Shown here: positions 36,561 to 54,289 of the stretch, piece by piece
Position numbering within the stretch: position 1 is the stretch's first letter
Layout of the letters: every line of letters starts with the position of its first letter
Assembly: GCF_910592395.1 (NCBI RefSeq)
Contig: NC_088311.1
Location: 15,502,501 to 15,566,500, forward strand
DNA length: 64,000 nucleotides
Origin: Lineus longissimus
Taxonomy: Eukaryota; Nemertea; Pilidiophora; Heteronemertea; Lineidae
Direction of reading: 5' to 3'
Position numbers and translations under genes: made by a program
The notes under the pieces: model-generated
The model's database searches: none
What the model saw: only the letters and a program-made list of their open reading frames with translations
Told to the model about the DNA's origin: nothing

Positions 36561-36620
36561 ATAAAAAATTGAATTATGTCATCACTACTACACCATAATT
36601 TATGACCCTGGGCTTACGTT

Positions 36621-37081
36621 TATGGCAAGCCAGAGTGGACACAATTCGTATTTTATATCCTTATATATTGTTATTTTATGTGGATATATATTCATATTTT
36701 ATGTCCATATATATTCCGACCAATCAGAATGAATTTCTTTATATGCACAATAATTCATTTTATATACACATAAATTCCATTTTATGTCCACATAAATTCA
36801 ATTTTATGTCAACATAAAATCCGATTTTATGTCCATATAAATTATTTTATGTGGAGATATATTGGTATTTTATGTCCATATAAATTAGATAATATCTACA
36901 CATAAATTAGACCGGACGAATTTATCACCACATAAATTCCCATTTTATATGGACATAAAATCAGCCAATCAGAATGCCGCTTTATATGTGCTTATATATT
37001 CCACTTCCGTATTGAAAACGTCTACTTCCTTATTAGAATCGGTCACTTCCGTATTAAAATACTTTTGGCCAATGGGAACCA
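36621..37081. repeat. Left terminal inverted repeat of the 16.6-kb element
   Basis: 461 bp, very AT-rich. The words TTTTATGT and ACATAAA recur more than fifteen times, often as short palindromes such as TTTATGTCCACATAAA. Three ACTTCCGTATT-type repeats lie at its inner end. It retains the uninterrupted CCAATATATCTCC site (inverse, near 36855) that is occupied by the pogo-like element in the other arm. Confidence 0.9.
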
Positions 37082-37698
37082 CCGCCTTTTTGCGTGGTGT
37101 GCAGTGCAGGCCCTCCCTCTAAGGCTGCATCCTATGGTTCAACCGTTGTTGGCTGGGACTCGTAAAATCGCCCTTATTTCCCTCACCAGTTTTGACCTTT
37201 TTTGGTCAATACTCATGTCATGGCATGGATGGTTCCCTCACTGACTGGCACTGCTCACTCATTTTCTGGCCTGCATGTGGTGAGTCGAGTGCATGCCCCA
37301 ACCCAAAAACTAGAGGGAGAATTAAATGTTTAAACAGTGCTTGTACAATTTTCTGGAAAAGTCCTGGAATTTAACCCCCCAGTGCCAACCCTTTTTAAAA
37401 ATACCTACCCTACATACCTTACGACTTACCTTTTAAGACTAAAAACCGAACCGGACCCGATCGTACTGAACCTGGGACACAACCGACCGTACCAAACCGG
37501 GACACTACCGTACCGAACAGGGACACATAATGCACCGAACCGGGGCACATAGCACATCTTTTATGCATATTATCAAGTACCCAAGAATATGCAACTGATT
37601 AAAAAGCAGGTGCACTATTTATTTATTACAAAACGCCGCCGGTGTGCTGAAATTTAATTACTCTGTAGGAATGTAACACACCCCATTCATCTTTGCAG
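37082..37698. other. Presumed 5' region of the UBX/HECT-like gene
   Basis: No start codon could be tied to the first supported exon. A short minisatellite-like stretch (ACCGAACCGGGACAC variants) lies at 37465-37550. The promoter is probably here or in the inverted repeat. Confidence 0.35.
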
Positions 37699-40600
37699 AT
37701 TTCAACAGAATAGAAATGGACGTGCTGTTCCACCGACTGGCCGTCGGCATTCAGTAAAAAAGAAGGGTCGTGGTCGTCCCACTGGAAGTTATTTAATCAG
37801 ATTTGTTGTGTTGGATGACCCTAAGTCAACTAAACGCCCAGCTTCCTGGAAAGTACTCAAGGAGCTTAAGGATAACGGATTAGGTAAGTTGAAGCCTTAA
37901 AAAAGGATAGTGTTGATTGGGAGAAGATTGACATCACATGATTGATTGAAATATCCAGTCCAGCATGAGGAGGATTTATTTTTAATAAATGGTATTTATC
38001 CATTCCCTTTCCTATACATGATTAATACTACGAAGAGGTGGAAAAAAATTACCAATGGCAAACAATTGAATGCTACTTGAAGAAGTAACTTGGCAATAGT
38101 TGCTGGGGACAACCATAGAGGTATTAATACCTCCATGGGACAACTATTGCCAAGTAAGGGTCTTGTTTTCAGAGCACTTGGCAAAATAATGAGGGCACTA
38201 TGCTGGCAATACCAGCATTGTATGTAGGTGCTTTTTGTGAGCCCTGGAAACTGCAAGGCTGTTGTTAAGTTGTCTTGAGAGCTTAATTGGGAAGAGCTTT
38301 GCTAACTGCTATTATGCATGTCTGAGAGCAACTTTAAATGACTTTTTCAGGCCAGCTGCAAGATGATACAGGGTGCCCAACCTTGAAAGTTCCAGTCGAT
38401 GTTGGGGAAGATGCTGTGAAGCAATTGATCTTAGACAAATGTGCCAGGTTGCAGGGTCAGCCGTTGGACCTGATGAGTTTTAAATTTTCCAACGCCAAGG
38501 GAACCCGTTTAGAATTCCCTCCTGGGGAGAAGACCAGCAAAGTTATCCATAAATTTTGTGGTAACCCAAAGAAAATAGTTTATGTGGTACCTGGAGGGAA
38601 AATTGATAGATTGGTATGTATCCTAAATCTCAGTCACATCGTTGACAGAATGTTCTCAGTCAAGGTCACTGTCTCGTTTTTTATCATAATTACTGTCGGT
38701 TAAAGCCATACAACCTGTTCGATTTATTGGAATAAATAACACCCGGATCCTAATAAAAGTTGACTGCACTGAATTAGTACCTTTATAAAAAAAATAGCTT
38801 GAATTATTTCATAAAAAATTGACAGATAAAATATCGTGTTGTTAAATTCTAGATAGAATGTTTCCGATTGGTCCAGAACTTCTTTATCCCAAGGAAATGA
38901 GTTTGGAACTCTTAAGGGTTACGATTGCAAAGTCCTTGATATCGGTCAAAATGTGGCTATCAGAGGCATACTTGGTTCATAACCTGGCAGACGTCTCCTG
39001 TTGACTTAAAAGTGTGCTCTCACTCATGAAGAAAATGTGGCTTAAAGAAAATTATTGTCTAGAATAAGCCCTGGATGCACAAAATGACCTGGGTCTTCTT
39101 CCATTTCAGCCCACTGCTGAGCCTGGCACATCACAGGCGGGAAATGAACCTGTTAACTCACACTCGCAGGCTGGAATACCTGCTACTCCAGGAAATGTAA
39201 GTATAACTCGGTAAATGAAAACAAAATCAATTGGAGCAGTCACTTTTAGCAGATCAAGAAAAGGTAAATATGCCAATGGAATGACTTGGATTGACTCATT
39301 TGATGATTTACTTAACTGCCCAGGGGCCGTGTGCTCAAATGTGTCGTTAGGTTAACCAAATCAATACGCTATGCATTTTTTTCAGTTTTAGCGACTCCTT
39401 AACCTAACGACGGCTACGAGCACATGGCCTCAACACGTCACATCATCTAGCCTGTAATTGAAAAGGAATCTGAGTCAGTAGAATTCAAAAATACTCCATG
39501 GAAATGCTGAAATTTTTGTTGGAGCATTCGTCTGTTTATTTCCAGCGAGTCTTAAGGCCTGGGAAATCTTGGTTGGCGACTTTACTGTCATTTCGGGATA
39601 GTTTTACTTAGTGAAAATATTTTTCTCAATTCATTTTTACAGGACGCCAAAAGAAGAAAAACCGAAGAGTCCGAGAAGAGAACCATGAGGAAGAAAGAAC
39701 AGGATGACATGGTGCGTCTTTGTCATGCTATTTACCATATGTTGTTGTAATTGATCAGACAAATTCGTTGCTCCACCAGAACCCAGAGTGTTAATTACTG
39801 TCCGATGGTTATCCGCAGTTTGGCATGTTTTGGCGGCTTTGATGGTTGTGTAGGTGGTCAAAGTACAAAAGCCAAATTATAGCTTGTGACACGAGCTGTT
39901 CTTCTCACGGGTACCCCAGCTCTGGTGTGACATTTTGGCACCACCTAGTGTCAGAAAACCTCATGATCTCCCTAATAAGGGCAACTCTCTATTAAGGGCA
40001 GTTGAAGCCAGTCCCAATACTGTAGTTCTATGCCTTGCCGTATGAGAGTTAGTAAAGAGGAAAAAATGAACAACTTGCTAATGATTTAAGAACAGACTTT
40101 CCCAATCTAAATGCAACCAAACTCCAGAGATCTGCATATTTACATATCTTGGAAGAGGAGATCAAACTCCATCATCTGCCCAAGTTTCATTTGAATCCGC
40201 CAAGTATACGTAGCTCTCTGTCATCTGAAGTTGACAAATTGGAACCTGATAAAATGTCGCGAAAAGGCATTCTTCAGTTTTCAGTCAATTTTTAGTTTAG
40301 GCCCGTTGGCCATATCCTGCTTCATTACCTATCTCGGTTCTAGTGGCCATATCCCGATACATTATATCTGTTCTAATTTTAGGTAAGAGAGACAAGAAGG
40401 CAGAGATTGAATGAAATGGTGGAGGTGGAACACCCAAATGGCTTCAGCATACGATTAAAATTTCCGAACGGTGACTGCAGCACGATACGGTTCTTGGCCT
40501 CGGACAAGTTTTTGGTGAGCATACTTGTGACACATCACGTCACGACAAAGTGGGGATTAAACCTGGGGACAATGATAGAAATTGATTTCATTTCACTAAA

Positions 40601-43600
40601 GGGCAAAAAATGGTTAATCCACTTTTGGGCGTGTCGCCACTCAGGACGCACCAAACCAGGATATGACAGCAGTGAAAGTCACTATTCTGAATGGCATGGC
40701 TGAAAAATGAGAAACAAATGTTGTCATTTCAGACTTGAATGCGTAGGATTGTTGTAAGCACTTTTCAGGACACAGCTCTGAAACATAAAACAAATAGTGA
40801 ACTGAGTCATCTGTCTGGTTAACACAAGTTGAAATTAACCTGAGGCCAACTTTGGGTTAATCTGGGTGGTATTAATAGGGTGACCTAACCCTAAATCACT
40901 TTCTCAATTGAGTTCAAGACTGCGGTGAATGGAATTCTCGCATCGGTCAAACAGCATTATTAAATGTTAGGGCCACAGACAAGATGAACCATTGATGAGC
41001 CAGAATAGCAGAAAAAGGATTGTGTCATAACAGGCACTACCAAACAAACTGGCATAAGCCTAGGCTCGAATCATGCCATAAATGTCTCAGAGAACTTGAT
41101 CGATATTGCATCGCATCACTGTGTGACATCAAGCACAATCAGGCTGGTTTACTCATTCAGTAAACTGAAATATTTTAATGCCATTGCCAGCAGGGTACAA
41201 ATGGACATCAGACAACCTGGCCCCGAGAAAAAAAATAAGGCTGTTACTGGACACTTTTTCTGGGCCAACCGGCCTAGTGCATTGTGTACCCATTGTAAGT
41301 TGTTGCACGTTTTGAATAACAAGCTTCTTTCTTTCAGACATTGGTAGATGTTATTGGCTCAAATGAGAATGCCACTGCAGTTTTTGAAATCCATGTAGCT
41401 GGAACAACAACTGGCTTCAGGTCCACTGAAGATGAAGAGAAATCCTTGAATGATATGGGGATCAACTCACAAATGGTGTTGCTTATTCTGTGGACAGATG
41501 AACTACATACTGTAAGTTGACAAGAGGTTCAAGCACCACTTAGTAAGTAGGGTTGGAGTGCTCACATCTGGCACCAGTGATCCTACATTGATTAATATTA
41601 TGGCCTATATGTGATGCTTCTGAAGAGAACAGAAATTCCCTTCAACTCTATTATTCCTCGTTGGGAGAATTTGGAATCTTATTTTGTGGGATTATGACTA
41701 TGTATGAAGGCACAGCTAGTCATTGAGTTTAAGGTCTGGTCCAGTTTGTATACTTTATTAGAACTTAACTTGTTTAACTTGCCAACCTTCAATTTTCCTT
41801 CAGGATAAGGATGGTAAGCTGTCATCTTCAGAAGGAGAGTTCATTGCTGCTGGTACACCAACTGTTAAATTAGAATGTCTTCCAATGCCACATTTGAGAG
41901 CTATGGGAATTGATGGGTTTTGACTGTTACGACCAGTTCCGAGTCATGAGTAATACAGATTCAAATTCAGTATTACTGATCCTACGGACAACAGAATTGA
42001 AAGTTGCTTGCTATGAATATGATAATGAACATCACCACACAACACTGACCGCATGGACGTGATCTAGCCCCACCCATTATGTGATGGTAATCAGTGCCAT
42101 TTGGATCTAGATACAGCGTGATGTCAGCAGGCCTCATGAACTGGAGACAGTAATATATATCATGCATTAAATTCTGCATTATGGCCAGATGTGTGTACTG
42201 TGGAGCAGATTTCTATTATGGAGGCTTTTGTTTGATTTTGGTCAGTTCTTAAATTCACATGATTGCTTGTTGATTAGGTTGTTTTTTCATTCTGTTCAGG
42301 TGCTGTTTCGACAGAATACTTTTGCTGAAGACATTGAGCAATTGCCAGATTTGCAGGTGAGTAAATTCAGAAGCATTGTTAATTTTCCCTAAGAATAGTA
42401 CAGCCGTACAACATAGTGGTTTTCCGAATCTTGTTACAAGAAAAAACAGTTAATGCAGCTTTGGTATCTATACTATAATGCGCGTTGTGGCCGCTAAATA
42501 GGAGGCGATTTTTGTTTCAAAATTGGGCCTCGGAAATGCGTCGAATTCTTGCAACTTTTGGCTTCGTAGGTGTGGATCATAACTAAGAGTGTCACTGAGG
42601 GTGTCATACGTCGAACATATTGGTGGTTTTGGAATAAATAACAACTTTTCAGAGAGCACGTCGACTGGAGAGCTCCGCTCATTCTCAAAAGCATACACAA
42701 ACTTCACGCATATTCTCCCTGCCACATCAGTATTAGCTTCCAGCACGTATGTAGTGCTATACAACCTGGTCCATGGTGCAGGGTATTAGCAGGGAGATTA
42801 ATGATTAGCCTATTCTATTTTAGTTCTATTCGAGAAACACTGACCGGAGTGATAAGGCAAATTCTGCAGGGTGGCCTACCGGAACATGCAGTCAGGGTAT
42901 CAATAAACAGTTATGCCAGGATGGACAAAATATGTACAGTGGCCAGCGCTTGCTCTTTGATTTATTCTTTACTGATTGATGTTGTCAGTTTGAATTGCGT
43001 TCTGCATCTCTCCATGCGCCTGGCTTTGGTCCGACAGTGGCATTGGGTACGGGAGTGGGTAGGTGATATGCCTAATATGTGAGGCCCTTATTTGGAACAG
43101 GACCTGCTGTCACTGGTCTCAATGCATTGTGCAAAATAGCGTACTCCAATCAATCTATTGGGGGTTTCATGTAGATAGCAGCAATAAGTCCCTAAATGCA
43201 GTTCATTTCGTGTTTAACCTTTAATAAAACTTCAGTAACGTTATAGAAATTTAATGTAGTTCAATCATCGTGCCCATTTAACTAATGTATATTACATTTC
43301 AACTTTGCCCGCTCCATGGGTATATGCTAGTCCACATAATGCCGCAGTCAAGATTCAGATGGAGTCAATGTTGATGCGAGGTATCAGCAGCATCTGTTGT
43401 GGCTTTCAAATTAATTTATTCAATTTATTATTGATAGGTTAACCACATCGCAGATAATGATCCAGGACTACAAGAAAATACCAAGACTAATAATAGTGAG
43501 GATGACTTCATGCCTGCCATCCAGGTGAGTGAGTCTCAGGTTCCCTCTTCCCTCAGATTTGGCCTTCAAGCTCTCTTAAGCTGTTGACCTCCACTGTGGT

Positions 43601-45781
43601 CAGTGCAGCATTTTAGTAGCAGTGGAAATGTAGCTTTGCCCCAGACTGCGGACAGTTACAAACCAGGGCCGACCGCATAGAAACTCTCAAAGCGCTAACA
43701 GAACCTTCTTGCTGGATGTGGAATGGTGAAATCCATTAGGACTTATCAGAGATGGGTGCTGTCACTGCTATCAGTGTTTCTATGGGGTCGGCCCAGGAGT
43801 CTGAACAGTTGAAGAGCTCACAGGATGTTAGTAACTTGAACAGCTGTCTGTGACTGCAACATTCAACAAAAGCATGACGGTTGCATGGTCACACAGGCTT
43901 TGAAATTGTAATCGATTTCTTGTTATTTTACAGCCAGTGCAGAGGCGGCCTAGAAGAATGCGGCGTGGGCCAAGGAATCATCAAGATCAGGTAATTTTCA
44001 ATGTTGCACCACCATGGATATTGAAGAGAAGAACTCATGTGTAAATAACCGATAATACATGCAGTGTGTTTGTAATTGCCAAAAAATCTGTATGAAACAT
44101 CACAAGGTGAGGCAATACTGTATTGATTCATCTGATGTGAACAATACTACCTTGTTTCATGGGCACAAATCCCATAAAGCTTTTATTAACTTTTTCAGTT
44201 ACCGGCACCACAACCTCGGTTGGCAACACCACCGCCAAGGTCGCCGACACCACCACCTCGGTCGCCGACACCACCACCACCCCCTCGATCGCCGACACCA
44301 CCACCACCACCACCACCACCGAGGTCAGCATCAAGACCTCGGCGAAGATTAGAGCAACTGCCTCATCCCACATTGGACATAGCACCCAGTGTAATCAACA
44401 ATGACAATACAGATACTGAAATCTGGTAAGCATTATTATTTCATTGGATCCACTTAGGTAACTGTCACCCCCTTTCACCCATGGGTGACCAACTGAGGTA
44501 AAGATGCCTGTCCAGAGTTTCAGACTGGGTTCAAATGAGTTTGGCATGATTACGATGATTAAATATGAAGTGTGCACAAGCAAATTCTGCACTAAATTGA
44601 TATAATTAAATGAATTATTTATCACAATGAAATGAATGAATTTTGTGCAAAAAGAAGTGAAGCCACAACAAAGCCAGGAAAATGGTGGTCTGTAATATTG
44701 GAAATATTATGAATTGATTGTACCTTAAAAGACACAATGGATGAGTCGGAATCTCACAAGATTGAACTGTGATCTGCTTCTTTCTTTCTAGCATCCAAAT
44801 CAACAGAACCTCTGTTGTCGAAGATATGATACAGGCGTTCACATCAGATATTATTGGAAGTAAAGTGACCTTTCAATTTGTAAACATGGAGGGTAATACG
44901 GAAGAAGGGGATGGAAGTGGGGTTGAGAGGGATGCATACACATCCTTCTGGACATTGTTCATGGCACATTATTGTGATGGTGATGGGGAACGTATCCCCA
45001 TCTTGAGGTGTGGTTATGATAGGGACAAATGGTTAGCTGTAGCCCGTATCTTACTAAAAGGATATAAGGATCAGGGGATACTTCCTCTTTCCCTGAGCAG
45101 AGTATTCCTGATTTCATGCCTTTTTGGGAAAGAAGGAGTGACTCCTGACCTCCTTTTGAGGTCAATCTGCCAGTATCATGCACCTGAGGAATGCAAAATC
45201 CTTGAAGACGCCCTGTCGTGGAAGCTGGCTGAGGACGAGAAGGAAGAACTACTTGATATTTTATGCAGATTTGGTGTCAATAAAGTGCCAACGGCATCAA
45301 ATATCCTGCAGTTGCTTCTGGGTGTTGCAAACAAACAACTGGTTCAGAAGCCTGCTTTCATCACAGGCGTTTTCTATGACCTACTGTCCTCACATCGGAA
45401 TATTTTCCCGTCAACTGTACAACTGTTTCTGGACCAGCTTAACTCGCTAAAACCCACAACAAAAAAGGTGAGAGATGCAATCAGAGCTGCTCCGGAAACA
45501 GCTGACCAGGAAAAATGTTTCTCTTTTTTGAAACAGTTTGTTCGAGGACTGACACCTGATCTCCTGGCCAAATTCTTACGATTTGTGACAGGATCATCTG
45601 TAATGTCTTGCCAGGAGATCCTGGTTTCATTCAAACTAAGGGCTTCGCAAGACACCCTATTGCAAGGACATGTGGGCCACTTCTGGAGCTGCCGAGTACT
45701 TACTCTTCCTTTACAGAATTAAGGCAGGAGTTTCTGTTTATACTGGTGTCTAAGGAAGAGTGGGAGTTCTCGATAATATAG
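37699..45781 (+). CDS. UBX-like plus HECT ubiquitin-ligase-like protein, multi-exon
   Basis: Exons with GT-AG borders and agreeing phases: 37699-37883, 38351-38613, 39110-39196, 39643-39711, 40383-40514, 41338-41511, about 42300-42357, 43438-43524, 43934-43990, 44199-44425, 44792 to the end. The first exon is unseen. 40420-41511 forms a UBX/ubiquitin-like fold (GFSIRLKFPNGDCSTIRFLA to LILWTDE). 44199-44425 is a Pro/Arg-rich linker. 44792 onward is a HECT domain (GDGSGVERDAYTSFW, KFLRFVTGS). Exon 41804-41923 ends in a stop and may be an alternative terminal exon. Near 45645 one base appears lost: the frame ends at 45722, while the next frame encodes the HECT end with HPIARTCGPLLELP and its catalytic Cys, stopping at 45781. 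This resembles G2E3-like HECT proteins. Confidence 0.75.
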
Positions 45782-45789
45782 GCAGTTTT

Positions 45790-48345
45790 CAAAAATAGCA
45801 CAAACAGACTTAGTTACAAGGCTACGCTGTTGCGTATGCTCGTAATTGTATGGAACAATTCTTTTTGGGCTCTGGTTAGTGGAAGTATTTTTTGGCGTAT
45901 TTTGGACCACCCTGTATGTGTGCTGAACATGATACGATATTGATTTCTCAAGAATTACTTCTTTCTAACATTTTTGAGTTGCCCACACTTCCGATCAATA
46001 GGGTGAATACTTTCCACCAAAATTCTCGGTAGAAGGTTAGAGGGCACCGTTTCAGGGCCAAATGGTTTGAGGTTGAATGTACATGCAACTATGTGCTTGG
46101 GCAATTACAAATGATCAGGAAAATGCCTCAGAAGTCCTCATCTGGAGGGGGTATTGTCATGAGGAAGTTAAGTTAATTCTATCTGAAGCTAGTTTCGCTG
46201 TTGTTTGGTTGTAAAGTTGAGAGGGTACATGTCAATTCTTTTATTTTATAAAATTTATTCAACAAGCTGTAGCGACTGAAAAGGTTTCTCACCAAAGGCA
46301 AGGTCTAATTTGCAGACAATGGGAATTTGCAGACCTGGCTCTAATTTGTTTAATCCGTGATGTTTTAATGAAATTCAAATTGCTACATGTGGTTTATCTT
46401 CACGGACGTCATTAATCCACCTTGTCATTGCCAACATGGTATGGACATCGGACAATCAGGGACCACTAAAGCCTTCGCAACTTGGCGACCTTGAAAATCC
46501 ATGGTTTAACTATGTTCCATCGTTTGCTTGCTGAGAGGCAAAAGATTTGCGAGGGATTCTTGAATACCCTCTGGCCCCTGGACCCAAGGGAAAAAATTGG
46601 GGGCACTTTTCTGGGCCACCCTGTAGAAGGGCAGTGTTCAAATTGGCTGCCTAGCCAGTTTGAAAGTTACTGGGCTGTATGCACCAAAGAAGATCAAACC
46701 AAACTTTGCTAAAACCACAATTTTTCCACTGTCATTTTGTGCCCTGGTGGGCCTCAACAATGGAAAACATGTGGCTTAAAATGAGATTGAAATCATTTTT
46801 GTTGGTGCATACAGGCCATACGTAGTTTTTTTTTTCAAATATATTGATATTGAGTTAAGTCAGAGCCAAGCGCCAAATAAAAGCATTACAATATTATCTA
46901 GTCCTGTTGTAAAGTATTTTGCCAATAAAAAGTTAGTTCAAAGAAAATGTTTCATCCTTTATTGCTTTACAAATCATGGTCTCACCAGTTGGGAATGTGA
47001 AGTTGTGGATTTCTCATGGGCACCATTGGGCCCACATCGGTGTATCGTCAGCACAAAGTTACCTCCTATCAACGCCGAGACTTAACCACTGCCTGTGGGA
47101 GTGTACATTGGGCCCCATTGAAAAATACTAATACTGGATTTCACAAAAAACTAGACATGTCTTGAACTTAATTTCAGACTTGTTTTTGTGAAACCTGGCC
47201 CCTGGTATTTTGATGAAGATGCAATCTTAGAGTAGTGGTTCTTGGGTGGCAAAGCACCTGATCTGTTGGATATACTAGACTCGCTTGTTTAAGGGTACCT
47301 CATTACAGCACAGCCATATCCAAACCTTGCAGGTTTACTTCCATGTAAGTATTAAGCCCAGCCTGCACCTCTTGCCAAACTCCAGCAAACAAGTTTGCAG
47401 AAGTTAGGACATGCACCTTCTTGACAAACTAGTTTGCTAAGGTTTGAGCCTCAACCAATCAACATGTTGTAGTCAATGTGATCCTGTATATCCTGATAAA
47501 TTAAAAGTTCAGTGTGGACAGGCAACACTGAAGGGTGCTAGTGTAAACTCGTTCCCAGATATTCCAAACCTTGGAATTCAATGGGGCACCAATATTACAC
47601 ACAAATATCACTAAGTCATATAGTGAATTTTTGGCCACCAGGTCTTCTTTGGACACTTTCAAAGACATCTTGGCTGTGACAAGTAGACAGTTCAGGGCTG
47701 GGTTGTTCAATGCAAGTGAAATTATCTTCACGTTAGTTTATCTTGACAAACTGACTTTTAACTGAAGGAGATAACGCCAAGATAAATTTTAACGGCAAGT
47801 TAGTGACCAATCTTGTTTTGAATAACCGGGCCCAGGACCCCACTTTCTATGCCAGCCAGCTGTCAATACAATAGAAACACCAGTCATTTTCTGATAATAA
47901 AATGCCAAGCTTATAATTCACAAACAAATTCTTGAACAGGAGGATTTTCATTTTACATAATGCATGGGACCATAAGGGTGAGAGTAATACAATCTGACTG
48001 AAATAACTGCAATTCATCCCCCAACTGAGACTTCAGTTGACTTAGTGGTCTTAAATAGTCGAAAAGGAAATGCGACTCATAATAATTACGAAATTGACTA
48101 TAACCTGCCGCCGGTTTTCTTTGTTGGTTATTGTTGTGTAATAGTCACGGGCGATTAAAACCATTGGACAGTGGTTAACCACTATGATCAGATTTCTTTC
48201 TTCCACATTCTTTTTGGCTCAGGAGAGGTTGTGTCGGACTTTATGCATGTGATGCCATCAGCTTAGGGAATTTGCAGGTCGTGCCACACTGTGTAGTGAT
48301 AACTATGTCACCTTGATAACTATGTCACCTTGATGTTTTGCTTTT
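45790..48345. other. Spacer between the two convergent genes of the 16.6-kb element
   Basis: It holds the presumed 3' ends of both transcripts. Only short frames are present (for example 46482-46712), with no domain. I see no terminal repeats that would mark another insertion. Confidence 0.4.
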
Positions 48346-48351
48346 GGGACT

Positions 48352-50474
48352 TTATGGACTGTGAGCATTCTCAGAAAGGTAGTCCAAAACTTGAAAGTAT
48401 TTATTAAGTCCTTTGCCTTCTTCATTAAGATCTGCACATGGGTCCACTGCAGACTGCAGATCTTGCATTTGTTCAGGTGTCAGTGGTATTACTGTGTCTG
48501 GGACATTGACAATTGTCAAATATCCATCATCTTCTACAGTGTTTTCTTCACCCTCAATTTCACCATGCTCGTCACTGATGTCCATGTTTTCATTCTCCTC
48601 CTGCTCAGAAAAAATTCCCCTGATGCCAGTGTGGGTAGACTCATGCATTGCCAAGGATTTGCTGACAAATAACTGCACTGGAGACGCACTTTCTGTCCGC
48701 AATGTGTGGTGATTCCACGATGCCACAAAGTCATTTAATGATTTGTGAATACATGGCATAAAAACATAATGTAGGGCAAACAACTGTTCCTCACTGTTTG
48801 GATTCAGCACTCCAGATTCCTCAAATGCTGTGAAAAGGTCATAAAATACATTAACAGTATTATCCCATACATCTCGCCAAAGCCTCTCGATTCTCACATT
48901 GTGGACACTTTTCCCTTTTATGACTGTGCCTCGTCCAGATCCACGACAGCATTCCATGTATTCAAAGATTTTTTTATTCTCTCCTCCGCTGTCAACAGGA
49001 ATGCGTGATGGTATACCGTATTCCTTCACAGCTTCCTCAAAGCTCTGGAAAACAGTACTGGATTTGTTGTTTGTGGATGCTTTGAGGTATGTCACCAGCC
49101 TGGAAAATCCATCAATGGCACCATGAATTACAACACGCCATCTGAAAAAAAAACAGAAAGTCAGTTGGGATCATAGATTCTCCAGTTTCGAATTATACTA
49201 CGGCAATTGCCACAGACAGGATAAAAAGTAACTTGCGCCCACAAAATGCTGCGATTAAAATCTGAAAAAAAAGCCGCTGCACTCTAAATACAGTGGCATC
49301 ACCCCCAAAGTCATCACTCTGGCAAAATCATCACTCTGGCAAAATTTCTAACTAAAAGATTTAGTTTAAAATTTGGCCAGTGCGAGGATTTTGGCCAAGT
49401 TGAGACCAGCTGGTTGCCGAATTCTGCATAAACTGCCTTTTGTGAAAAGCTGACTACGTCCATTTCTTCAATTCTTCTTAGGTGAATCTTTAGGGTCTTC
49501 TGGCCCTTCAGCTGCAGGTGCTCCTTCACACTAACAAACCAAGCCATCATGACCAAGGAATTGTAGCAAGTACTAACTAACCTTATCAGTTTGTGGTTTC
49601 CATCTAAATGCCACAGTGAATTGGGCCCAGCCACATAGTACGAGCGTCTTTTTATAACCCTCCTTGCACGAAGGGCAACACCAACTGAATCAACTCGCCG
49701 CATTGAGCATCGGACCCTTTCCCTCGTGACGCTTACACCAATGTTCTTCAGCCGCACTTGAACATTACATGCACCAATCCTCCGATTTTCTTGAATAATT
49801 GAACGAACCTTTTCATCAAGTTCGCCATCTTCAATGTTACTGTACTCTGCACTTTCCAATGAGAACTCTCTGTAAAATCAATTTAGGGAACATTAGTTCA
49901 AGACAACACATCATCATAGGTACCTAGTGGTATAGTACTTACTAGGCTTGAATAAAGAATCAAGGAATCCTTTTGTCTTATTTTCTTGCATTTTTAACAC
50001 AATTTTTTCATACTTTTCTTGACTTGTGAAAAATCCTTTTTTTTCAAATCAAATATTACGTCATATTTATTGAAACTCGTGGCAGTTATTAATTACTTCA
50101 TGAAGGGTGCTCATGAATTATTGATCTCGCCGTCTCAAGAGATTCACTGCTTTTGGATCTCATGAACTAGGTCCTCGGCACCTTTTTTGTCTTTTTCAAG
50201 GACTTTGCACAAATCCACATACATACACTGAGGGTTCTGTAAAATAGATAAAACTGACTTACCGCATCCTTCTTGAGACTGTTTTGGCAGAAACTTTCAT
50301 TATATCGGCAATTTTCTTTTTGGTGAAGCGACAGGCAATCAGGAACTGCAACTGGTTTTTGGTGATGTCAAATTTAGATGCCCCTCTGCCACCAGTACAA
50401 TGACGAAGAGATCTGTAATTGACTGTTTCTCCTCGAGCCGACAAAAATAAAATAACAGATTGACAGAATATCAT
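48352..50474 (-). CDS. IS3-like DDE transposase, spliced
   Basis: Three exons on the minus strand: about 50474-50263, 49869-49582, 49141-48352, with donors GTAAGT and GTTAGT and matching phases. Exon 1 ends in a helix-turn-helix-like segment (FTKKKIADIMKVSAKTVSRR). Exon 2 carries a second DNA-binding region and begins the catalytic core (GPNSLWHLDGNHKLI, first Asp). Exon 3 continues WRVVIHGAIDGFSRLVTYL, then VDSGGEN (second Asp) and RIERLWRDVW (Glu), with an acidic C-terminal tail. All three catalytic residues are present and no stop interrupts it, so it may be functional. An additional 5' exon could lie at 50835-51123. Confidence 0.82.
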
Positions 50475-50834
50475 TCATAATCTCCATGCAGGCTGCCAAG
50501 TTTATACACAGAGAATTGTCCTCAAGACAAATTGGAAAAACCTTGCACCCTCTGGCTCTGCACACAATTACACGGATCAGGGAATACCGACCTAATTATT
50601 GCAACAGCGGAAATTTTCAAATCTCTGAAGTTGTTATAGTAGGTAGCTATATACCTATACCTATAGGTACAAGGTAGCCTACCATTGAAACTTTTTGGAC
50701 TAGGCCTATGGCTATAGCCAGGTAGGTATACCTTAGAGAAGAGGGGTCTACCTAAAGGACGGTACGGGTAGGAGGTCGTCTAGCTAGGCCTCTAGCCCTG
50801 GCCTTGCGGCAGGTGAAATCAACTTCGTGTTAGT

Positions 50835-51123
50835 TTAGTCATTAGTGGTGACCTTATCTCTTTTTGAAGCCTCTCTTGAACTTTGAACTTCGCCCATGAT
50901 ACCATTTAGCGATGCCGAAATGTTTCGGTAAAGCTCATCGCCATTGGGACGTTGCATGAACATGGCGTGGGCACGACTCAAACCACGTTGGAGGCCGTCC
51001 AAACGTGCCAAAACTGTTACTCCTGCATCACTTTCGTCATCGCAGACTAGTGTTCGACAGCAATCATTCACTTCTCTCCTAAAGTTATCAATAAATTCTT
51101 CGAAATCATTACCACGAGCCATA
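50835..51123 (-). CDS. Possible first exon of the transposase gene
   Basis: An open frame from ATG at about 51123 reads MARGNDFEEFIDNFRREVND onward for about 95 codons. It lies between the right inverted repeat and the transposase exons and is on the same strand. A weak donor AAG-GTCACC occurs near the end. Joining to 50474 is not proven. Confidence 0.35.
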
Positions 51124-51439
51124 ACCAAAACCGAAAAAATGTTGAACAAGACAGCGGGCAGGCAGTGTCTGCACACGCGCGACCCACAATGCAGCTGCGC
51201 GCGCCAATGAAACGATGGTTCCCATTGGCCAAAAGTATTTTAATACGGAAGTGACCGATTCTAATACGGAAGTAGAAGTTTTCAATACGGAAGTGGAATA
51301 TATAAGCACATATAAAGCGGCATTCTGATTGGCTGATTTTATGTCCATATAAAATGGGAATTTATGTGGTGATAAATTCGTCCGGTCTAATTTATGTGTA
51401 GATATAATCTAATTTATATGGACATAAAATACCAATATA

Positions 51440-52987
51440 CAGTGACTACTTAGTTAACTGGTGCTTGGTCTAAAATTTTCTAAGTCACTAATAGAGGCCC
51501 AGAATGGGATATTGTCGATTTACGACCATGTAGGGCCTATACTAATCACATTTCAATGAAGAAAATGACAGAGTTTTGATTACATGTTCATTTCTTGATC
51601 TGGTCTTCTGTGGCCAATTTTATCAATCAATGGTTGGTATGAAAGGCAATTGCAGTTGTGTAATTTCCTAGGCCCTTTACCCTAACAATCATATTGGTCA
51701 TTCCTGTAGAAAGTTCAAATCATGAGGAACACAACGTTGTTGTTACTGCTGATGCTTTCGCTCTTTGTCATGTGTCAGTCAATGATGGATGCTGGCAATG
51801 ATGACGATGATGATGATGATGATGCCGATCAGCAGAATGGTGCTGCAGCAGTTGGTCTCCCTCGACGATGTAACAGTTACACTGTTGAAGCCAGGCTGCG
51901 ACATGCCTTGGATTGCCAAACAGCAATTGAACATGGCCGCATTCTAAATGTCAATGAGTATGCTAGGCGCTATCGACTATCCCCAACAACGCTCAGGAGA
52001 TGGATACAGAACATCGATGAAATGACGGATCAAGTGGAGGAAAATGCAGAACGCCGGCGAGTCAGAACCGACCATGATGGTTGTTGGCCGGAAGTTGAGA
52101 ATATCGTGCACCAGCATTTTCAAGAACGGAGGAATATTGCCCTGCCCGTTTCTCGGTCGGACATTGTTAATGATGCAACGATTGAATTTCAGAACTGGTG
52201 GGGCCAACTCCCACACAATGAACTTGAGGACATTGCAGCACGTCGCCCCGAAAGGTCCCAGTTTTCTGCATCAGTGGGTTGGGTTACAAATTTTATGAAA
52301 CGCAAAATTACATTACAGGATGTACTCGGCATTATAAGTAGAGCATGGAATGATGTAGCTCCTGAGTCTGCGGCTAAGTCATTTCAAGTGGCTGGCTTAA
52401 CACCTCAACCAGATGGTCATTATCGTGATGATGTTGCAGATGATTTGTTGCTTGGTGAAAACGAATTGTCAGACTCCGATAATGATGATGATAACTTAAA
52501 TTTTGACGACAACTTGGAATTGTAAAACAGTTGTAGTGCAAAGTAGTGAATAAGTAAATGTTGTTAATGGCATCGGTTATGTAAGTGTTAGTTACTTTAC
52601 CCCCCAAGTTAAACTTTTGGGCAAAAATCTCACATCCCCTCCCTGATTCAAATGCCACTTTTTTTAGGGTTTACCCTGTAAAAAGCTTGTAACGACATTC
52701 ATTTTCCATGAAAAGCACTGGCCAGTGATCGTAGTCTTGGATGGACTTTCTGCATGTCGGATTTCAAGCTATTAAAACTTTCTGAGTACTTGATGAAAGT
52801 GATCATAGTCAATAGGTATCAATGCCGACATGTGCAGTAGGCTCAAGTTGTCATTATTAGCCCATTCATGCTTCTCAAAAGGAATGTAGGCCCTGCACAA
52901 CCCATCTGGGCCTAAAATGCATATTATAATGACCTATTATGGACTTAGAAAATTTTAGACCAGCACCAGTTAACTAAGTACTCACTG
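51440..52987 (+). mobile_element. Pogo-like transposon, 1548 bp, internally deleted
   Basis: The ends CAGTGACTACTTAGTTAACT and the inverse of CAGTGAGTACTTAGTTAACT form inverted repeats of about 46 bp, with TA at 51438-51439 and 52988-52989. The empty site is preserved in the other inverted repeat of the host element. TA target and CAGT ends are typical of the pogo/Tigger group. Confidence 0.88.
51722..52525 (+). CDS. Pogo-like transposase lacking the DDE core
   Basis: 267 codons. Residues about 50-110 form a psq/CENP-B N-terminal helix-turn-helix (VNEYARRYRLSPTTLRRWI). Residues about 120-200 are a CENPB-type HTH ending FSASVGWVTNFMKR. The next residues, ITLQDVLGIISRAWNDVAPE, belong to the far C-terminus of pogo transposases, so roughly 180 residues with the catalytic DDE are missing without loss of frame. 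It keeps DNA-binding domains and an acidic tail and could act as a binding-only repressor. The first 20 residues look like a signal peptide; the true start may be the Met pair just before the Asp run. Confidence 0.82.
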   Translation: MRNTTLLLLLMLSLFVMCQSMMDAGNDDDDDDDDADQQNGAAAVGLPRRCNSYTVEARLRHALDCQTAIEHGRILNVNEYARRYRLSPTTLRRWIQNIDEMTDQVEENAERRRVRTDHDGCWPEVENIVHQHFQERRNIALPVSRSDIVNDATIEFQNWWGQLPHNELEDIAARRPERSQFSASVGWVTNFMKRKITLQDVLGIISRAWNDVAPESAAKSFQVAGLTPQPDGHYRDDVADDLLLGENELSDSDNDDDNLNFDDNLEL

Positions 52988-53329
52988 TATCTCCACATAA
53001 AATAATTTATATGGACATAAAATCGGATTTTATGTGGACATATAATTGAATTTATGTGGACATAAAATGGAATGTATGTGTATATAAAATGAATTATTGT
53101 GCATATAAAGAAATTCATTCTGATTGGTCGGAATATATATGGACATAAAATATGAATATATATCCACATAAAATAACAATATATAAGGATATAAAATACG
53201 AATTGTGTCCACTCTGGCTTGCCATATACGTTTAGTAAACTTCAGTACCCTCATTATTCATTGGCGTTGTTGTTGTTTTTGAGTTGTGTTTTTAAAGAGG
53301 AAGCCTAAAAGGAAAGCTTCTGATCGAAT

Positions 53330-53651: not shown

Positions 53652-54269
53652 TCATACCGAATTAAACTCTGCGGACGATAAACCGACCGCAGCCCTGTAG
53701 CTCTTGAACAATTTGAAGTTGCCCAGGTCATTAAAGTGGACTCCGTCAGTGTCGTAGATCCAACGCTCTGCATTCCAGATGCCCTTATGTTTCCAAAGCG
53801 ACACGGCTGCAGAAACTGAATTGAGTTCGGCAAGGCGTTTGTTGCAAAGTTGTACCTTAACATTATATCCAGGAGGGCACCAAACTCTAGGGATCAATTG
53901 GGAAATCAGAACTCTACAATCACAGAGTTGATGCAACTCAAAAGCAAACCTAGAGAGGTCACTCGCTACCTGCTCAGCAGAGTTGGACGACTTACACAGG
54001 TCGTTTCCACCGACCTGCAGGATGATCAAATCAGGGTAATAAGCACGGATTTTGTTGAACAAAACCTGTGAATTATAGATACGCGCCAAATTCAAACCTG
54101 GCACTCCCCGAAAGACAACGTTGCACTCAGCCAGTTGTAGATAATGACCCGTCAGGCCAGGCTGAAATTGGCCGAACCGAGTACCGGAGACGGCAAATTT
54201 CTGAAGCCTTTTGATATAGCTGTGGCCGAAAATTAGGACACGAAAACGATTAACCTGGGCGAATGCCAT
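53652..54269 (-). CDS. SGNH/GDSL-type hydrolase ORF of a retroelement
   Basis: 205 codons with the SGNH blocks: block I FGHSYIKRL (Ser nucleophile), block II RGVPGLN (Gly), block III VGGNDLC (Asn) and block V DTDGVHFND (Asp and His). Its length suits a compact lipase/esterase-like fold. Such ORFs occur in some Ngaro-type retroelements, whose substrate is unknown. It lies on the same strand as gag, RT and the recombinase and is separated from gag only by the 16.6-kb insertion, so it may be an ORF of the same element or of a neighbouring copy. All catalytic positions look present. Confidence 0.8.
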   Translation of the reverse strand: MAFAQVNRFRVLIFGHSYIKRLQKFAVSGTRFGQFQPGLTGHYLQLAECNVVFRGVPGLNLARIYNSQVLFNKIRAYYPDLIILQVGGNDLCKSSNSAEQVASDLSRFAFELHQLCDCRVLISQLIPRVWCPPGYNVKVQLCNKRLAELNSVSAAVSLWKHKGIWNAERWIYDTDGVHFNDLGNFKLFKSYRAAVGLSSAEFNSV

Positions 54270-54289
54270 TGTAACTTAAACAAAGTTAA

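Follow-up and report, generated by a model that had tools for sequence, protein, structure and literature searches.

A Lineus longissimus IS3EU transposon with a convergent HECT-type accessory gene, and related elements with a protein kinase in its place

The stretch of the Lineus longissimus genome analyzed here (NC_088311.1, positions 15,502,501 to 15,566,500; 64,000 nucleotides, hereafter the window) contains at positions 36621-53226 a DNA transposon of the IS3EU type with the ends TATGG..CCATA. A DDE transposase gene and, convergent to it, a gene encoding UBX and HECT ubiquitin-ligase domains lie inside the element. It is highly probable that this is an IS3EU cut-and-paste transposon whose convergent second gene (HECT, here UBX-HECT) is a regular accessory gene, encoding an N-terminus joined to an exchangeable enzyme. 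HECT is a recurrent component of these transposons and not a one-off passenger. New here is that certain IS3EU elements combine the N-terminal domain shared with the HECT form with a protein kinase instead of HECT. We lean, with more reserve, towards a wider reading in which animal IS3EU elements have an exchangeable effector slot, a kept targeting domain being fused to either a HECT ligase or a protein kinase directed at a common target.

The linkage of the two genes was tested in one genome, that of L. longissimus, where the rva_4 transposase family gave 150 matches corresponding to 122 loci. The HECT queries, supplemented by weaker, C-lobe-only matches to Pfam HECT, yielded 66 transposon-type HECT loci, and the remaining Pfam HECT matches formed 20 host-type loci, the split between the two types being made by eye. 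An rva_4 transposase was located within 15 kb of 50 of the 66 transposon-type loci, with 50 distinct partners, and the orientation was convergent in 48 of these 50 pairs, which bears out the proposal of the initial annotation that HECT is a regular component of the transposon. Pieces at most 10 kb apart were merged before counting, which changed the ratio from 53/69 to 50/66, three elements having been split in two. None of the host-type loci (0/20) had an rva_4 transposase within 15 kb. When the loci were split by Pfam score instead, using a shorter transposase list, 0/19 loci at or above 50 bits and 25/32 loci below 50 bits were near a transposase, the low-scoring class becoming 25/31 after merging with the full list. 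With a smaller transposase set, HECT was found near 34 of 75 loci.

The pairing could in principle arise merely because unrelated transposons accumulate in the same repeat-rich parts of the genome, and IS3EU loci do cluster in some regions, for example on C14. The 50 observed pairs were compared with a random placement null (mean 0.8, maximum 6 in 3000 trials) and with a local-shift null of 50-500 kb (mean 1.8, maximum 8); the null excluded loci of the small contig C28, and for C13 it used a published or rounded length. These nulls, together with the nearly uniform convergent orientation, make co-location exceedingly improbable as a general explanation. It is ruled out for four elements, in which terminal inverted repeats (TIRs) and target site duplications (TSDs) enclose both genes: two with HECT (the window element and the element labeled L061) and two with a kinase (L065/L068 and L069).

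L061 represents a second bounded IS3EU family, 6.8 kb in length, with ends TACGG..CCGTA, a 6-bp TSD ATCATC and both genes inside, and it encodes an intact HECT protein of 701 amino acids. A homologue search with this protein scored only the 8000 candidates that had the most words in common with it and identified fish, sea cucumber, mussel and beetle homologues that retain the catalytic HTC motif. HTC was present in 18/18 aligned relatives from several phyla, and also in L061, L062, L063 and L067; in a wider alignment of 26 rows, its T and C were nearly invariant, though not invariant. A bilobed HECT fold was predicted in a modeled homologue. The N-terminus of the HECT proteins contains a domain named GGGTR here (our own label), which matched no Pfam family, and a SAM-like stretch recognized by eye. 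Among the HECT-type proteins scanned against Pfam, UBX was found in the window gene model only, and the others that were aligned carry GGGTR. In viral contigs scanned with the L061 HECT, no relative was found. A more canonical type of HECT C-lobe, type B (FPTSNTCANLLRLP...SPGFGFA, with an NTC motif), adjoins IS3EU transposases at L056, L057 and L059 (on C17, C1 and C12, respectively). The type-A C-lobe profile left these type-B C-lobes unmatched, so there may have been several captures of HECT, type B being perhaps an independent one. No type-B C-lobe was seen in the translated stretch of L058, and this locus was perhaps mapped in the wrong orientation.

A transposase tree was built from 27 chosen loci, two of which were dropped as shorter than 120 amino acids, and the 25 loci retained formed two deep clades with HECT elements in both. 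Rows with no detected HECT were interspersed among the HECT rows and included the identical pair L038 and L039, so some of the missing HECT partners have probably been lost or have escaped detection.

The accessory gene is not always HECT, a correction to the initial annotation. At L065, a transposase locus without HECT, the convergent strand holds a homologue of the N-terminal domain of the HECT proteins (hhalign Prob 98.0, E 1.9e-13), followed by an immunoglobulin-like stretch and then by a protein kinase whose sequence is divided between two frames. The L065/L068 element is bounded (7577 bp, TSD GATTAG, 73-bp repeats 94.5% identical) and had no HECT profile match; its transposase belongs to the same clade as those of L061 and L067, the exact place being weakly supported (81/63). 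A search with the L065 N-terminal region returned three proteins, all of them bearing Pkinase and two of them from Saccostrea oysters. When the Lineus genome was searched with an oyster protein, 15 loci with the N-terminal part and a kinase were found. A transposase was no more than 15 kb away at 8 of them, always in convergent orientation, and none of these (0/8) had HECT within 20 kb. These counts were the same with 120 transposase and 51 HECT loci as with all 122 and 66. Loci with a kinase only were never near a transposase (0/23, compared with 120 of the 122 transposase loci). Within 15 kb of the 122 transposase loci, HECT was thus found at 50, the kinase form at 8, both at none and neither at 64.

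L069 is a second bounded kinase element (7916 bp, TSD ATAAAT). Its accessory gene is a single open frame of 680 amino acids with a Pkinase match at E 7.3e-46, in which VAVK, HRD and DLG were recognized by eye; its transposase is interrupted. The kinase elements end in TACGA..TCGTA, by which TA..TA is kept and TAYGG..CCRTA is not. In the kinase-type accessory protein, a TDP-43_N-like domain was noticed N-terminally, at residues 24-74 of P0042 (Pfam E 3e-4, below cut-off), and a stretch matching it was seen at positions 1402-1548 of the L068+L065 worm element.

In the window element, the transposase gene occupies positions 48352-51122 of the minus strand and consists of four exons (51122-50903, 50431-50263, 49869-49582 and 49141-48352) encoding 488 amino acids without an internal stop. 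The open reading frame (ORF) of the last exon matched Pfam rva_4 (PF24764) with an E value of 3.3e-68, and a match to rve (E 2.5e-4) stayed under its own cut-off; D219, D276 and E311 were taken as the DDE triad by eye. The DDE transposase of the initial annotation is thereby confirmed, as is the inward transcription of both genes, the UBX-HECT gene being on the plus strand.

The UBX-HECT gene was modeled at 37700-45722 with 11 exons joined by in-phase GT..AG junctions, and no start codon was identified. Exons 1-6 are at 37700-37883, 38351-38613, 39110-39196, 39643-39711, 40383-40514 and 41338-41511, and exons 7-11 at 42300-42356, 43438-43524, 43934-43990, 44199-44425 and 44792-45722; an exon-like stretch at 41804-41921 was excluded from the model owing to a stop at its end. 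The encoded protein has a UBX domain, a proline-rich stretch, a HECT N-lobe and then a C-lobe in another frame. The UBX domain is spliced across two exons (40383-41511, plus strand) and matched PF00789 with 25.7 bits (cut-off 21, E 1.4e-5). Pfam HECT was sub-threshold (15 bits, E 0.02), and the profiles built from the relatives of this HECT gave 167.7 bits for the N-lobe and 45.6 bits for the C-lobe, which lies at 45602-45778 of the plus strand and has RTC as its catalytic-cysteine motif. The UBX and HECT assignments of the initial annotation were thus upheld, but the ligase gene of the window copy is broken, because the C-lobe is out of frame with the N-lobe and RTC stands instead of HTC; judged from its sequence as assembled, this copy is predicted to be unable to make an active ligase. 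SAM-like and GGGTR profiles had no match in the window protein, and the HECT region of the window gene, used as a query, brought up no homologue at E 0.001.

The element has the termini TATGGCAAGCC...GGCTTGCCATA, which are directly adjoined by perfect 6-bp TSDs of sequence TACGTT at 36615-36620 and 53227-53232, where the initial annotation had placed them. Long TIRs are present as well, but their length is 464 bp rather than 461 bp, and the right one is split by a nested element of 1548 bp. The left TIR extends over 36621-37084 (plus strand), and the right TIR is formed by an inner part at 51213-51439 and an outer part at 52990-53226 (both minus strand); 457 of the 464 positions are identical between them once the nested element is set aside. 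The repeats are made up of short palindromic subrepeats. The nested element (51440-52987, plus strand) was classified as pogo/Tigger-like because of its TA duplication, its CAGTG..CACTG ends and an ORF at 51710-52525 with a Tc5-type helix-turn-helix (Pfam HTH_Tnp_Tc5, E 3e-6). It is probably an internally deleted copy, since no Pfam transposase catalytic domain was matched in it. Two recognizable genes had been annotated within the transposon, and both stand, with this ORF as a third. Without the nested insertion, the element measures about 15.06 kb. Just outside it, an open frame of 207 amino acids at 53652-54275 of the minus strand appeared SGNH-hydrolase-like by eye, and an ORF at 8344-8985 of L065 resembled this frame by eye.

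The window repeat gave at least 69 matches in the genome, and those inspected were short copies and single or partial ends. Seventeen repeat loci were inspected together with flanks of about 1.5 kb, two of them being the same copy. Seven distinct short copies of 570-1121 bp had both ends and identical 6-bp NACGTN duplications, in the same pattern as TACGTT in the window. They are fold-back miniature inverted-repeat transposable elements (MITEs) of the window family (L002, L004, L005, L007, L014, L017 and L019), and their duplications are a palindromic target preference. Two further short copies had duplications with one mismatch, and the remaining inspected loci were single or partial ends. 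L021 is a partial copy of the family that also holds internal sequence.

Several results weigh against HECT as a regular accessory gene. Genome searches with the repeat and for the genes revealed no second gene-bearing copy of the window repeat family. In the window copy itself, the reading frame of HECT is interrupted ahead of the catalytic cysteine, and RTC stands in place of the usual HTC. Near-identical copies were counted as separate loci, and the linkage counts are not independent events. No transposase lay within 15 kb of 16 of the 66 HECT loci or of 7 of the 15 kinase-type loci, and neither HECT nor kinase was detected within 15 kb of 64 of the 122 transposase loci. L064 (C12:7910501-7920500) has an open transposase frame of 483 amino acids and no recognized HECT or kinase partner in 10 kb. 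Three L061-type copies differ in HECT by 2-3 synonymous and 4-6 nonsynonymous codons, so that these young copies show no sign of purifying selection, the changes being too few to test. For the homologues from other animals, the evidence consists of protein records that carry no genomic context. Conservation of HTC between phyla is the one line of sequence evidence that suggests selection on HECT.

Only the best candidates were scored in the genome searches: 150 of 214 for rva_4, 61 of 65 and 64 of 90 in the HECT searches, and 61 of 170 in the search for kinase-type loci. Failure to detect a partner therefore carries little weight. The 64 partnerless transposase loci may be truncated, may have undetected partners or may truly lack one. 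At L066, another transposase locus without HECT, no clear partner was seen, and the expected place holds ORFs that appear by eye to be like those of long terminal repeat retrotransposons. Five loci on one chromosome, C13 (11188040, 11565194, 12210495, 13232241 and 13334307) have the N-terminal part and a kinase with no transposase detected within 15 kb; they may be non-autonomous or belong to a host-kept family. According to the initial annotation, its proposal would be refuted by orthologues of the HECT gene that keep one fixed position and lack the inverted repeats. The HECT lineage is spread over many loci, most of which have a transposase nearby, and no host-type HECT locus has one; the 16 loci with no transposase within 15 kb were left unexamined for repeats.

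The window copy, which is broken and the only gene-bearing one found in its family, and the lack of a sign of purifying selection among the young copies, few as their changes are, would also suit a piece of a host gene that a single element picked up accidentally, a passenger without a role. Transposons often carry host fragments. This explanation is nevertheless very unlikely. The same HECT lineage stands beside transposases at 50/66 loci, convergent in 48/50, and in both deep clades; the window HECT scored 167.7 bits against the transposon-HECT profile and only 15 bits against Pfam HECT; and HTC is invariant in 18/18 relatives from several phyla.

The IS3EU superfamily of eukaryotic DNA transposons is already known, being described in PMC10045372. 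The window transposon shows the tested IS3EU features, with TA..TA ends, a 6-bp TSD, long TIRs and a DDE transposase of the IS3/IS481 kind. The ends TAYGG..CCRTA of fungal members are matched by TATGG..CCATA of the window element and TACGG..CCGTA of L061, and TSDs of 6 bp were found in the window (TACGTT), L061 (ATCATC), L065/L068 (GATTAG), L069 (ATAAAT) and the seven MITEs (NACGTN). HECT has 0 occurrences in PMC10045372 and PMC12730594, and as an accessory gene of the superfamily it appears new within the literature searched. No report of HECT in IS3EU was found in open-licence PMC papers, with Repbase, Dfam and subscription journals outside the scope; in the same literature, IS3EU with ubiquitin gave papers that were off-subject judging by title and first lines of the abstract, and among the papers listed for IS3EU with kinase and HECT none contains IS3EU. 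Fungal TET+ IS3EU elements, as described in PMC12730594, contain an alpha-kinase gene opposite to the transposase and share with the Lineus elements a captured accessory enzyme gene in this arrangement inside IS3EU. They differ from the Lineus elements, which carry HECT or a typical Pkinase (PF00069) behind a common N-terminal domain; this comparison is based on HECT and kinase, TET/JBP not having been searched for in the Lineus elements. Unlike the cellular HECT E3 ligases UBR5, HUWE1 and UBE3A, the transposon-borne HECT proteins form a separate lineage that scores weakly in Pfam, and their N-terminus is either of the SAM-like (by eye)/GGGTR kind or UBX. MULE (Mutator-like element) and other plant transposons carry ULP1-type proteases and are likewise transposons with an enzyme of the ubiquitin/SUMO world; ULP1 removes a modifier and is borne by another superfamily, whereas the Lineus elements encode a ligase that would attach ubiquitin.

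The accessory protein is very probably modular, with an N-terminal part (GGGTR in one transposase clade and UBX in the window element) and an exchangeable enzyme, and it would act as a working enzyme. In the most likely mechanism, the N-terminal module would bring the enzyme to a target common to the ligase and kinase forms, where modification by ubiquitylation or phosphorylation would benefit transposition or escape from silencing. Our preferred target, held with an evenly balanced degree of confidence, is a host protein such as a silencing or cell-cycle factor, for which HECT and the kinase would be two ways to disable or alter it. The exchange of the effector while the N-terminal domain is kept points this way. 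In fungi, genes for TET/JBP and an alpha-kinase are found in IS3EU elements, and PMC12730594 proposes for TET an escape from methylation-based silencing.

The next candidate, a tentative one, is turnover of the transposase-DNA complex: the ligase would ubiquitylate the transposase or its complex with DNA, and p97/Cdc48 recruited by UBX would remove the complex, so that the ends get repaired. The action of ClpX on the MuA transpososome is the model for this. UBX domains bind p97/Cdc48, and the presence of one beside HECT in the window gene fits the extraction of protein-DNA complexes. The recurrent pairing with the transposase is also consistent with it, and the subterminal repeat arrays could load many transposase molecules. 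Less favorable are the restriction of UBX to the window gene model among the HECT-type proteins scanned with Pfam, the other aligned ones having GGGTR, and the replacement of HECT by a kinase, which is a poor fit to a pure degradation role.

If the reading of an exchangeable enzyme directed at a common target is true, animal IS3EU elements carry a repertoire of protein-modifying enzymes against that target, like parasites that swap effectors. Selfish DNA with its own post-translational control of the cell would be unusual, and a cut-and-paste transposon with an E3 ligase as a regular gene, or with a kinase in its slot, would be such a case. The L061 family, together with L069 for the accessory kinase gene, provides defined elements with open reading frames for study of the role of the accessory gene. 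Some records of fish, molluscs, echinoderms and beetles annotated as "uncharacterized protein" or "HECT domain-containing protein" are perhaps transposon genes, and if so, gene annotation and counts of E3 ligases in these animals would be affected.

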